Source: Methanofollis liminatans DSM 4140 (GTDB lineage Archaea > Halobacteriota > Methanomicrobia > Methanomicrobiales > Methanofollaceae). Taken from it: a stretch of 64,000 nt of DNA. Positions 14,257 to 46,380 of the stretch are shown here, piece after piece. Made by a program: the position numbers and the translations under genes. The notes below the pieces were generated by a model. That model was not told where the DNA came from. It worked only from the letters and a program-made list of their open reading frames with translations, and searched no databases. The first letter of the stretch is position 1. Each line of letters starts with the position of its first letter. The DNA is taken from positions 1,515,099 through 1,579,098 of the forward strand of contig NZ_CM001555.1 of assembly GCF_000275865.1 (NCBI RefSeq). The letters run 5' to 3'.

Positions 14257-15579
14257 TCACCGTCCCCGCCGGTAGCGCCCCATCGCCGCCACAAAGGCGT
14301 CGGCGAAGTTACCGGTCAGATAGGCGTGGCTGTAGCCCCCGAGGACGGCGTGCTCAGATAGACCGTCCTTCCCGTCCACGATCCCCTTCCCTCGCCCGAG
14401 GTCCAGGGCGAAGCGGGCATCCGGGGCGGTCTCGACCGAGGAGTAATGGAATTCGTGCCCCCTGAAAGAGAGCCCGGCCGGAAGAAGCGGCGATGCCCCC
14501 GTGCTCCGGGCGTCCACGTAGCCGAGGGCCTGGAAACGCCCGTGCATACCGGCCTCGCCTGGCAGGACGCCGGCCATCCTGAAGTCTCCCTCCCCGCAGG
14601 AGAGGCGTTCGCAGAGGTAGAGGAGGCCGCCGCACTCGGCATAGACCGGCAGTCCGTCCGCGGCGGCCGCCCTGATCTCGCGGGTGCAGGGGGAGCGGGA
14701 GAGCGCCCCGGCATGGAGTTCGGGATAGCCCCCGCCGAGATAGAGGCCGTCGACGTCGGGGAGAGCCTCGGTGAGGGGGGAGAAGGGGACGATTTCTGCC
14801 CCGGCCTGACTGAGGAGGTCGAGGTTGTCCTGGTAATAGAAGCAGAAGGCGGCGTCGAGGGCGACGCCCAGGCGGACCGAAGGCTGCTGCCCCTGCCGCA
14901 CCGGCGCGGGGGCAGCAGGCGGCGACGACGACGCCGATCCTATCAGGGCGTCGAGGTCGCAGTGCTCGGCGCACACCTCCCCGAAGGCGGCCATGCTCGC
15001 CTCGCCGGCCATCGCAAGCCCGAGGTGGCGGCTCCCGACGCTCTTTTCCCGCTCGGTCGGCACCCACCCGAGGGCAGTAATGGAGAGGTATTTTTCGATC
15101 ATCTGCCGGTGCCGCGGGCTCCCGACGCGGTTGAAGATCACCCCGGCAAAGCGGACGGCGGGATCGAAGGCGGTGTAACCGCCGACGAGCGCATGGGCGC
15201 TCCTCGACATCCCCTTGATGTCGGCGACAAGGACAACCGGGGCGCCCAGGATCTTCGCCACATGCGCCGTGCTCCCGGTCTCTTCGCCCTCAAGGCCGTC
15301 GTACATTCCCATCACGCCTTCGACGACGGCGATGTCCGCACCTGCCGAGGCCGAGATGAAGGTCCTGACCACGCCGTCTGTACCCATCATGTAGGGATCG
15401 AGGTTTCTCGACGGGCGGCCGCAGATGGCGGTGTGGTGGGAGGGGTCGATGAAGTCAGGGCCGACCTTGAAGGGCTGGACGACAAGACCCCGCGCCCGCA
15501 GCGCCGCCATGACGCCGCTGGCGATGGTGGTCTTGCCGCAGCCCGAGTGGGTGCCTGCGATGACGATTGCCGGGATCAT
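14257..15579 (-). CDS. cbiA: Cobyrinate a,c-diamide synthase
   Basis: 440 residues. The N-terminal dethiobiotin-synthetase-like ATPase has the P-loop GTHSGCGKTT and VGPDFIDPSHH. The C-terminal class-I-like glutamine amidotransferase domain carries GGGYPELHAGAL and the nucleophile region YAECGGLLYL. It amidates the a and c side chains of cobyrinate using glutamine and ATP. A paralogue, CfbB, does the same on Ni-sirohydrochlorin for F430, and the two are hard to separate by eye; the cobalamin context favours CbiA. ATG at 15579 has no obvious ribosome-binding site. The gene is separated from the cbi operon by repeat array A. Confidence 0.9.
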   Translation of the reverse strand: MIPAIVIAGTHSGCGKTTIASGVMAALRARGLVVQPFKVGPDFIDPSHHTAICGRPSRNLDPYMMGTDGVVRTFISASAGADIAVVEGVMGMYDGLEGEETGSTAHVAKILGAPVVLVADIKGMSRSAHALVGGYTAFDPAVRFAGVIFNRVGSPRHRQMIEKYLSITALGWVPTEREKSVGSRHLGLAMAGEASMAAFGEVCAEHCDLDALIGSASSSPPAAPAPVRQGQQPSVRLGVALDAAFCFYYQDNLDLLSQAGAEIVPFSPLTEALPDVDGLYLGGGYPELHAGALSRSPCTREIRAAAADGLPVYAECGGLLYLCERLSCGEGDFRMAGVLPGEAGMHGRFQALGYVDARSTGASPLLPAGLSFRGHEFHYSSVETAPDARFALDLGRGKGIVDGKDGLSEHAVLGGYSHAYLTGNFADAFVAAMGRYRRGR

Positions 15580-15793
15580 CGGTCGAGTATTGATCGGCAG
15601 GATGGATGAAGATTGGGTTTTCCCGCTCTCTTGAAGCGCTCACCTCCAACGCCGATCGAGAACACGTGACGCTGCACTGGCGAGGGTATCGTAGGTCGTC
15701 CCTTTATCGTGGAACCGGGCGATGAGATGACCTGTAAGAAACCATTCGCCCGGCAGTTTTCGGGATCACATGGGGGATCTGTGCACCGCAAAA
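15580..15793. other. Intergenic stretch between cbiA and repeat array A
   Basis: 214 bp without a supportable gene. It should hold the cbiA promoter if cbiA has its own, but I see only a weak AT-containing stretch around 15705-15715 (CCTTTATCG on the plus strand) and no convincing TATA box on the minus strand. The open frames crossing it continue into the repeats and are judged spurious. Confidence 0.4.
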
Positions 15794-16410
15794 TTGCGAT
15801 TGGTGCGGGGATGGACAAAATACCCCGGCACGCCCACCCATCATTTTTCATCGTTAGATGTTCCTCCCGTCCGTCCCTGCATGTCCAGGGCAATCCACCC
15901 CAACGGGGTGCAACCCCCGGCGCGAGGCGGGTGTTGTGTGCGGGTACGGGAAATCGAGCAGCCCCTTGCCGGGGGGGCCTGCTGTCCCCCGACCCCCCCC
16001 GCCGAGTGTGATTGGGGGCAGGAACCCGTAAAACCGCCCCGCCCTGGCCATCCAGAATTTTTCATCGAGAGGCGCAACGCCCGCCCGTCCTCCGCACATC
16101 CAGGGCAATCGCATGCGGGGGTCCGGGGGTGCAACCCCCGGGCGGTGTCCGCTCCACTCATCAGATCTCTTTCCACATCCTCGCGCTGAGAACATGAGGG
16201 TTCCAGAAACGAGGGTAGACACCACCCGGGGGGCTGGCTGCCCCCCTACCCCCCCGCCGAATGCGATTGGGGCAGGAACCCACAAAACCCTCCGGCACGA
16301 CCATCCTGAATTTTTCATCGAAAGGCTCTCAGCCCTGCCTTTCCCCGCACATCCAGGGGCAATCGTGCGCGGGGGTCCGGGGGTGCAACCCCCGGGCAGA
16401 GGCATCCAGA
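15794..16410 (+). repeat. GC-rich repeat array A (three tandem units)
   Basis: Three imperfect units, about 15794-16005, 16006-16260 and 16261-16410 (the last truncated). Each begins GCGATTGGGGCAGGAACCC-like and continues with CATCCAGAATTTTTCATCGA, a CCAGGGGCAATCG block and a palindromic GGGGGTGCAACCCCC. Unit 2 then carries tail type I (TCCGCTCCACTCATCAGATC … GAGGGTTCCAGAAAC) and unit 1 tail type II (GTGTTGTGTGCGGGTACGGG). Both tails end with a G-run/C-run inverted repeat of the form GGGGGGCTGGCTGCCCCCC and then CGCCGA. Related copies lie at 32882-33350 and 46040-46380. The array runs opposite to the flanking cbi genes. Confidence 0.9.
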
Positions 16411-16439
16411 AATGTGAAGGTTTTTACAGAGCCAGTTTT

Positions 16440-17012
16440 TCAGAGATCACCAGCCACCACGACGAAGAGCCCGCTTTCAGGAACCGGCGGCGCTCCCGCC
16501 GTCCCGAGGGCGATCCGCTCCTGCGGGTAGCCGAGGTCCTCGCAGACGGCGATCCGCACCTCGGGAGGCAGGGCCGCCGCAAGGTCGGGGACCGAGAAGG
16601 CAGGGTCGGCGATGAGAAAGACCACCCGCCCGCGGGAGACCTCCAGGGCGGCGTCGGCGATCGCCGCCGCGTGATCCTTCCCGTGGGCGGTGACGACCGC
16701 GCTCTTCACCAGCGAGATCCCCAGACGGGCGAAGGCAACCTGCATCGAGGAGATGCCCGGGATCACCTCGCCCCCGAGATAACCGAGCCCCGCGAGCATG
16801 GGGTCGCCGGTCGAGAGGACGACCGCATCGTCAGGGAGCGACCGGAGGCGTTTGTAGTCGGTGATCTCGTGCACCGCCGCCCCCTCGCGGATATAGGGGC
16901 GGGCGAGGTCGATGGCGCGATCTGATCCGTAGATGACCGCCGCCCCGGCGATCGCCGCCGCCGCTGCCGCCGTGATCATGCCGGGGCCGCAGCCCACACC
17001 GACGATCTTCAC
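16440..17012 (-). CDS. cbiE: Cobalt-precorrin-7 (C5)-methyltransferase
   Basis: About 190 residues, a tetrapyrrole (SUMT-like) methylase. Visible motifs are VGVGCGPGMIT at the N-terminus, LSTGDPMLAGLG (the GDP loop) and VIPGISSMQVAFARLGIS, which are characteristic of CbiE/CobL-N. It uses SAM to methylate C5 of cobalt-precorrin-7; the companion C15 methylation and decarboxylation is done by CbiT at the other end of the operon. It starts with GTG at 17012, overlapping the cbiD stop by 4 bp (GTGA). It is the last gene of the cbi operon and is followed within 30 bp by repeat array A. Confidence 0.92.
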   Translation of the reverse strand: MKIVGVGCGPGMITAAAAAAIAGAAVIYGSDRAIDLARPYIREGAAVHEITDYKRLRSLPDDAVVLSTGDPMLAGLGYLGGEVIPGISSMQVAFARLGISLVKSAVVTAHGKDHAAAIADAALEVSRGRVVFLIADPAFSVPDLAAALPPEVRIAVCEDLGYPQERIALGTAGAPPVPESGLFVVVAGDL

Positions 17013-32782: not shown

Positions 32783-32881
32783 AGGTCCCTCCTGGATCTT
32801 TTTTTCGGTTTTGATTTACCCCTCCGGAGTGGAGATGCGGGTCTGGGGGCGGCAGGTGTTGCGGGGGATGTCTGCTCGGAT
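32783..32881 (+). terminator. Short spacer with T-run terminator after the Agl23-like gene
   Basis: GGATCTTTTTTTCGGTTTTGATTT contains a seven-T run at about 32799-32805 and a second T-rich run just after, the usual archaeal termination signal, 17 bp after the stop codon. The remainder (to 32881) is GC-rich with no gene and leads into repeat locus B. Confidence 0.5.
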
Positions 32882-33350
32882 TTCTGGAGCCCTTACGTTC
32901 TCAGTGTGAAGATGTGGAAAATCGCTCTGAAGGTGGAGCGGATACCTCTCGGGGGCTCTTACCCCCCCGGACCCCTGCATGCGACTGCCCCTGGATGTGC
33001 GGGGGAAGGCAGGGCTGAGAATCCGTCGATGAAATATTCTGGATGGTCAGGCCGGGGCGCATTTGTGGGTTCCTGCCCCAATCGTATCCGGCGGGGGGTG
33101 GGTCGGGGGGCAGCCAGCCCCCCGGCAGGTGTCTGCACAGGCGTTCAGGAACCTTCACGCTCTCAGCACGAGGATGTGGAAAGAGATCTGATGGGTGAAG
33201 TGGACACCGCCCGGGGTTGCACCCCCTGACCCCCGTGAGCGAACTGTCCCTGACATGAGGGGACGGGCCGAGCGGTGTAGTTGCTGATGATGATTCTTGA
33301 TGGACGTGCCGGAGCATTTTGTGGGTTCCTCCCCCAATCATACATCTGGA
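32882..33350 (-). repeat. GC-rich repeat locus B (two tandem units)
   Basis: Reverse-complement copies of the family at 15794-16410. Heads begin near 33344 and 33087 on the minus strand, giving a period of 257 bp that matches the 255 bp of array A. Both heads are followed by tail type I; between them lies the GGGGGGCTGGCTGCCCCCC-type inverted repeat (about 33103-33122 on the plus strand). The second unit ends in TCAGAGCGATTTTCCACATC and ACTGAGAACGTAAGGGCTCC. It occupies the gap between two convergent genes. The small open frames across it are repeat-derived. Confidence 0.88.
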
Positions 33351-46039: not shown

Positions 46040-46380
46040 CCTTTTTTCCACACCCGTTGGCAGCAGGTTGCCCCGGCAGAGGCTGCTCGATTACCCGTAC
46101 ACGCACACAACGCCCACCCCGCACCGGGGGTTGCACCCCCGGACCCCTGCACACGATTGCCCTGGCCATGCGAGGAAGGCCCAGGCGGCGCACTGGTCGA
46201 TGAAAAATTGATGGATGGGCGTGCCGGCGTGGTTGTCCATCCCTGCCCCAATCGCAATCGGCGGGGAACCGGGGGGCAGCCAGCCCCCCAGCAGGTGTCT
46301 GCCCTGGTTTTCTGGAACCCTCACGTGCTCAGCGCGAGGATGTGGATATCGCTCTGATGGGTGGAGCGGATACCGCCCGT
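46040..46380 (-). repeat. GC-rich repeat locus C (one and a half units)
   Basis: Minus-strand copy of the family at 15794-16410. From the right: tail type I (GCGGTATCCGCTCCACCCATC, about 46343-46377, to GAGGGTTCCAGAAAACCAGG), the GGGGGGCTGGCTGCCCCCC inverted repeat near 46275-46293, and the head starting near 46258 (GCGATTGGGGCAGGGATGGAC). Next come CATCAATTTTTCATCGACCA, the CCGGGGGTGCAACCCCCGG palindrome, and tail type II (GCGTTGTGTGCGTGTACGGG, about 46090-46115). Unit 1 of array A is its closest relative (GGATGGAC head variant plus tail II). It fills the gap between convergent genes. Confidence 0.88.

Follow-up and report, generated by a model that had tools for sequence, protein, structure and literature searches.

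The tandem GC-rich array in the cobalamin region of Methanofollis liminatans DSM 4140 is very probably the core of a non-autonomous MITE, whose modular core is expandable and whose family derives from a Methanofollis IS5-family insertion sequence (IS). Five observations carry this assignment: the two arms are distinct and end in inverted repeats, target duplications measure 8 bp, relatives have empty sites, the left arm corresponds to an IS copy with a deletion, and the Y and X modules form an array of variable composition. The window, i.e. the whole stretch of DNA that was analysed, is 64,000 nucleotides long. Genomes are designated by G numbers (G000, the own genome; G003, a sister species) and loci by L numbers.

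Organization of the window element

The limits of the element were obtained with module HMMs and with a search for its ends and target duplications (TSDs). The following features were assigned, the modules with the same HMMs.

14257-15579, minus strand: cbiA/cobB, neighbour of the array
15616-15623: left TSD copy GGTTTTCC, identical to the right copy at 6 of 8 positions
15624-16433, plus strand: whole modular MITE, LA-Y-X3-Y-X1-Y-RA, 810 bp
15624-15793, plus strand: left arm (LA), starting with the degenerate TIR CGCTCTCTTGAAG
15795-15895, plus strand: module Y, copy 1
15905-15918, no strand: palindrome A, copy 1, GGGGTGCAACCCCC
15920-15956, plus strand: module X of type X3 (match core)
15971-15990, no strand: palindrome B, copy 1, GGGGGGGCCTGCTGTCCCCC
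16007-16123, plus strand: module Y, copy 2
16125-16139, no strand: palindrome A, copy 2, GGGGGTGCAACCCCC
16142-16222, plus strand: module X of type X1, holding the box ATCAGATCTCTTTCCACATC
16228-16246, no strand: palindrome B, copy 2, GGGGGGCTGGCTGCCCCCC
16262-16377, plus strand: module Y, copy 3
16379-16393, no strand: palindrome A, copy 3
16402-16433, plus strand: right arm (RA), shortened, ending in the TIR TTTTTACAGAGCC at 16421-16433
16434-16441: right TSD copy AGTTTTTC, overlapping the cbiE stop codon region
16440-17012, minus strand: cbiE, cobalt-precorrin-7 methyltransferase, neighbour of the array
32869-33340, minus strand: second window member, Y and X1 modules, between convergent genes, no TIRs found
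46076-46376, minus strand: third window member, X1-Y-X3, no TIRs found

The element is larger than the extent 15794-16410 given in an earlier note on this DNA, which had cut off the TIRs and the target duplication. In this copy the ends are degenerate and the 8-bp duplication is imperfect (6/8). The positions of the flanking genes agree with the earlier statement that the array separates cbiE from cbiA, two co-directional genes; among named relatives, the closest to the adjacent CbiA comes from an uncultured Methanofollis (78% identity). No transposase gene was found over the window element, where coding-potential scoring made no coding call.

A palindromic core, GGGGTGCAACCCC, had been noticed in three units, and it is indeed present at 15905, 16126 and 16380. 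The AT-containing box ATTTTTCATCG likewise occurs once per unit, at 15843, 16057 and 16310. The second AT-containing box, ATCAGATCTCTTTCCACATC, has a single copy in the array (16160), its other window copy lying at 33173 on the opposite strand, and the second inverted repeat, thought to end every tail, is found in two copies rather than three (GGGGGGGCCTGCTGTCCCCC and GGGGGGCTGGCTGCCCCCC). As this palindrome and this box are missing from some units, the earlier description was partly right. Repeated units were also recovered, but not with the uniform length of about 255 bp that had been proposed: their spacings are 221 and 254 bp. The cause is a difference in the segments lying between the shared modules: X3 occupies the first interval and X1 the second.

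A family of modular arrays in the chromosome

The chromosome is a single contig of 2.475 Mb. Searching it gave 68 matches falling into about 39 arrays, in line with the expectation of copies beyond the three window loci; one further array was recovered through its arm, for a total of about 40. The own genome was read around the matches and over ten 20-kb control stretches. Reading the flanks of single-unit copies revealed larger defined ends, GGCTTTGTTGAAAAGCTCC... on the left and ...TGATGATTTCTACAAAGCC on the right.

Profile searches with six modules showed that nearly all arrays follow one grammar, LA - Y - (palA - X - palB - Y)n - palA - RA, where palA and palB stand for palindromes A and B. 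The modules counted were 93 Y (about 115 bp), 75 X (about 50-90 bp), 16 LA and 17 RA, the X modules being of three interchangeable types (32 X3, 23 X2 and 20 X1). Element lengths span 371-1062 bp. LA-Y-RA is represented by L036 (371 bp), LA-Y-X1-Y-RA by L067 and LA-Y-X3-Y-RA by L035, L038, L041, L065, L046a and L125. One or both arms are missing in the majority of arrays. The family arms were found in the genomes of other species too.

One 1062-bp element with a perfect duplication (L039, G000:C1:616500-620600) shows, between X1 and Y, part of a further left arm. This suggests recombination of an arm with an X module.

Insertion as a unit

Perfect 8-bp duplications flank five of the eleven own elements that have both ends (L035, L036, L039, L046a and L068), and they abut the TIR boundaries exactly. 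In a pooled survey of own elements and short sister-species elements, 24 of 38 flank pairs (six of the 38 being re-counts of own elements) matched at 7 or more of 8 positions, as compared to 1.2 after shuffling of the right flanks.

Empty sites, which the earlier note had proposed to look for, exist in relatives. When the flanks were joined without the element, they aligned unbroken in the sister species G003 at three loci (L035, 96%; L039, 92%; L038, 97%). At the window locus, 860 bp separate cbiE from cbiA; in two relatives (G011 and L174) the gap measures only 53 bp. G003 and G007, which are the closest relatives, have no array in this gap (L271 and L272) but a TnpB-like gene, which at L271 matches PF07282. 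Unrelated mobile elements have therefore struck this gap in different species.

Relationship to an IS5-family parent

The TIR GGCTYTGTWGAAA is common to the family and to autonomous IS5-type elements in G003, G005 and G009. In eleven related genomes of the genus, exact copies of this 13-bp TIR number 2 to 357 per genome (G001, 357; G002, 222; G009, 78; G005, 76; G004, 49), with 0 for the reversed-pattern controls. The TIR also occurs, less often, in other families of the order. G003 holds three intact IS of about 1 kb that have ends of this type and perfect 8-bp duplications, and intact IS of this sort were also found in G005. In G009, a 954-bp IS has such TIRs, a perfect 8-bp duplication and a frame-broken transposase. 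The G003 transposase matches NCBIfam NF033579 (transpos_IS5_2, IS5 family) at 4.4e-69 with 233 bits, the cut-off being 140, and also PF01609 at 6.2e-21. The parent may belong to the ISH1 subgroup of the IS5 family; an 8-bp duplication was seen. An IS6-like mobiliser had been our first idea, from the 8-bp duplication and the GGCTTTGTTG end, and was discarded since the transposase is of the IS5 family.

The LA consensus of the family aligns to both ends of the G003 IS: bp 1-67 to the left end (score 43, shuffle maximum 23) and bp 67-120 to the right end (score 46, shuffle maximum 27). Translated on the reverse strand, the first part of the arm (...AISIVVGGELFNKA) is similar by eye to the C-terminus of the transposase (...AIVVLVVVEGFNKA). 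Sequence comparison shows the left arm of the family to have arisen by internal deletion from an IS5-family IS of about 1 kb, which sister species still carry intact. The left arm of the window copy itself gave no alignment to the IS at the BLAST settings used and is linked to it through the family LA consensus, to which it is 80% identical. Overall, a non-autonomous mobile element, one of the options raised earlier, draws strong support from the IS5-family TIRs, the duplications, the empty sites and the origin of the left arm.

Within the own genome, the search found a sole relative of the IS5-type transposase (L259, G000:C1:1702087-1705425). It is 46% identical over the query, and both of its ends read TGC where the family TIR has GGC. 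Comparison of the left arm with this diverged IS gave only very short or weak matches. Because the only own IS5-type transposase found is diverged and has a slightly different TIR, the present mobilising enzyme is uncertain; the element family may be inactive in its own genome.

Sister species carry short relatives of 96-336 bp. A distinct MITE of 95-96 bp, which combines these TIRs with perfect 8-bp duplications, was seen at L286 (G000:C1:1291800-1292900), L172 (G006) and L293 (G003), and TIR pairs at this spacing were listed in G029 and G034, from another family of the order. Judging by their exact TIR ends, G001 and G002 should each hold roughly a hundred short MITEs or more, a very heavy load for a prokaryote; the search used found no close transposase relative in either. 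In G009, the IS5-type element with a frame-broken transposase at L158 (G009:C1:1588500-1591000, 416-1952) is followed by a third TIR about 580 bp downstream and looks like a nested or composite unit.

Genomic setting and module turnover

The setting of the 40 arrays with callable neighbours was compared to a background made of the ten 20-kb control stretches and the window. Twenty-five arrays lie between convergent genes, a setting that holds 24% of intergenic bases (p about 2e-7), and only two lie in divergent gaps, which hold 29% (p about 2e-4); both figures are approximate, the home-made codon-usage gene caller having missed short genes such as cbiE. Convergent placement was commoner among arrays without both arms.

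Such a bias would be expected if harmful insertions are removed, and it is compatible with the arrays later serving as boundary elements. It could also be read as the mark of domestication, the arrays now acting between convergent genes as a bidirectional terminator, an insulator or a protein-binding site, with a mobile origin that is history only; several end-less arrays are indeed kept at orthologous places in G003. However, selection against promoter insertions gives an equal bias, a T-rich tract was seen by eye already upstream of the array in some loci, and the window copy lies between co-directional genes. Orthologous arrays also differ in module number, as described below. We regard a domesticated site as unlikely. 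Similarly doubtful is the version in which selection has turned end-less arrays into boundary elements, be it a bidirectional terminator, an insulator or a site for an architectural protein, with module number tuning their strength. A protein-binding or nucleoid element, the third option of the earlier note, would draw on the same convergent enrichment, which avoidance of damage to promoters would equally produce.

Eight orthologous arrays could be compared between G000 and G003, and they differ in module number and type. Pairs included Y-X3-Y-X2-Y versus Y, Y-X2-Y versus Y, and Y-X2-Y-X2-Y versus X2-Y-X3-Y. Part of these differences may be due to weak modules that were missed; the inter-anchor lengths of the arrays differ as well.

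Palindromes and predicted RNA structure

Palindrome A was found at 71 of 83 joints. Its loop is mostly TGCAA, with TAAGAA, TAAGAG, TGGCAA and others also seen, and its G/C arms stay paired while the loops vary. The predicted folds are stable, with z = -2.2 for 421 nt and z = -3.3 when the opposite strand of the whole element is folded. Both observations would suit a structured non-coding RNA family with hairpins selected as RNA, which the earlier note had listed among its options. The comparative data do not favour this. Among 54 aligned Y modules, 5 pairs of columns showed two-sided changes as compared to 4.2 expected, and 211 of 500 shuffles reached 5, so that the covariation check that had been suggested came out no higher than shuffling; of the three conditions for refutation named in the earlier note, this alone gave a negative result. 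The RNAalifold consensus energy is weak, only -4.6 kcal/mol, and neither the whole-window scan nor a permissive scan of Rfam gave a family at threshold. Moreover, orthologous loci change module order and number. An RNA family is therefore very unlikely, and the palindrome arms were possibly kept through homogenisation among copies or through hairpin-driven recombination.

A local satellite or minisatellite expansion, or an assembly artefact, with no mobile element involved, would agree with the head-to-tail modules and with the differences in module number between species. It is refuted by the dispersed copies, which share arms, TIRs, 8-bp duplications and empty sites, and by the presence of the same arms in genomes of other species; such an expansion would not yield a mosaic module order either, and we see hardly any chance that it applies. 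A protein-coding repeat gene, as open frames of 139-183 aa spanning the array might suggest, can be dismissed with near certainty, since unit lengths of 221 and 254 bp, not being multiples of three, shift the reading frame between units, and no gene was called over the array by coding-potential scoring.

Discussion

The data point to the following course for the MITE family. An IS5-type transposase acting in trans would recognise the GGCTYTGTWGAAA ends and carry the element as a whole into gaps between genes. Once inserted, the array would gain, lose and swap modules by recombination or slippage between them, an exchange that hairpin-forming palindromes may help. Copies that have lost their ends would then remain chiefly in convergent gaps, the setting in which they do the least damage.

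The family has IS-matching TIRs and target duplications, lacks a transposase of its own, is multicopy and intergenic, and shows presence/absence in relatives. Its architecture recalls BOX (boxA-boxB(n)-boxC) from Streptococcus pneumoniae and S. suis, where a boxB array of variable length sits between boxA and boxC and the TIRs resemble those of ISSpn2 (PMC3049150). Both are MITE-like, with distinct end modules, a variable internal tandem array, TIRs resembling an IS of the same host and predicted stem-loops; module number varies between strains for BOX and between species here. The comparison is one of architecture. The present family has an archaeal host, a GC-rich core and longer modules. 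Y and X take turns in the array, the two kinds of joint carry different palindromes, and X comes in three interchanging types; the partner of the family is an IS5-family element with 8-bp duplications.

BrickBuilt of Porphyromonas gingivalis is a MITE with a leader, a tail and a minisatellite, present in 19 copies in one strain (PMC4596501). It shares with the present family the intergenic location and the leader/tail-type ends enclosing a tandem array, but its unit is a single 23-nt repeat without spacers, whereas a two-module mosaic of roughly 220-255 bp is repeated here. Ordinary IS5-derived MITEs, which are internal-deletion derivatives, share with our family the TIRs and 8-bp duplications of an IS5-type element, and the left arm of the family is likewise made of two fused IS ends; an expandable core is added in our case. 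Archaeal satellites, such as the 45- and 51-bp families of Methanoculleus marisnigri, are also dispersed non-coding tandem repeats for which transposition is suspected (PMC6749651). That work concerns other repeats and does not mention Methanofollis, whereas a transposition route is worked out here. The family is therefore filed as a MITE of the modular kind, a member of neither BOX nor BrickBuilt. The novelty lies in the archaeal family, in the parent traced for it and in the alternating mosaic with two palindromes; the kind is already known from bacteria. Our literature search found no paper combining 'Methanofollis' and 'MITE' and no description of MITEs in the genus.

Differences in modules from locus to locus may serve as strain-typing markers. 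Across a dozen Methanofollis genomes, the autonomous parent of about 1 kb can be set beside its 120-bp deletion derivative, short MITEs and composites whose core is expandable. The genus thus offers a clean system for studying how a transposon turns satellite-like in a prokaryote, and it also lets one ask whether such arrays gain a role between convergent genes. If the boundary-element reading were true, the arrays would represent a satellite-like archaeal regulatory system grown out of a MITE.
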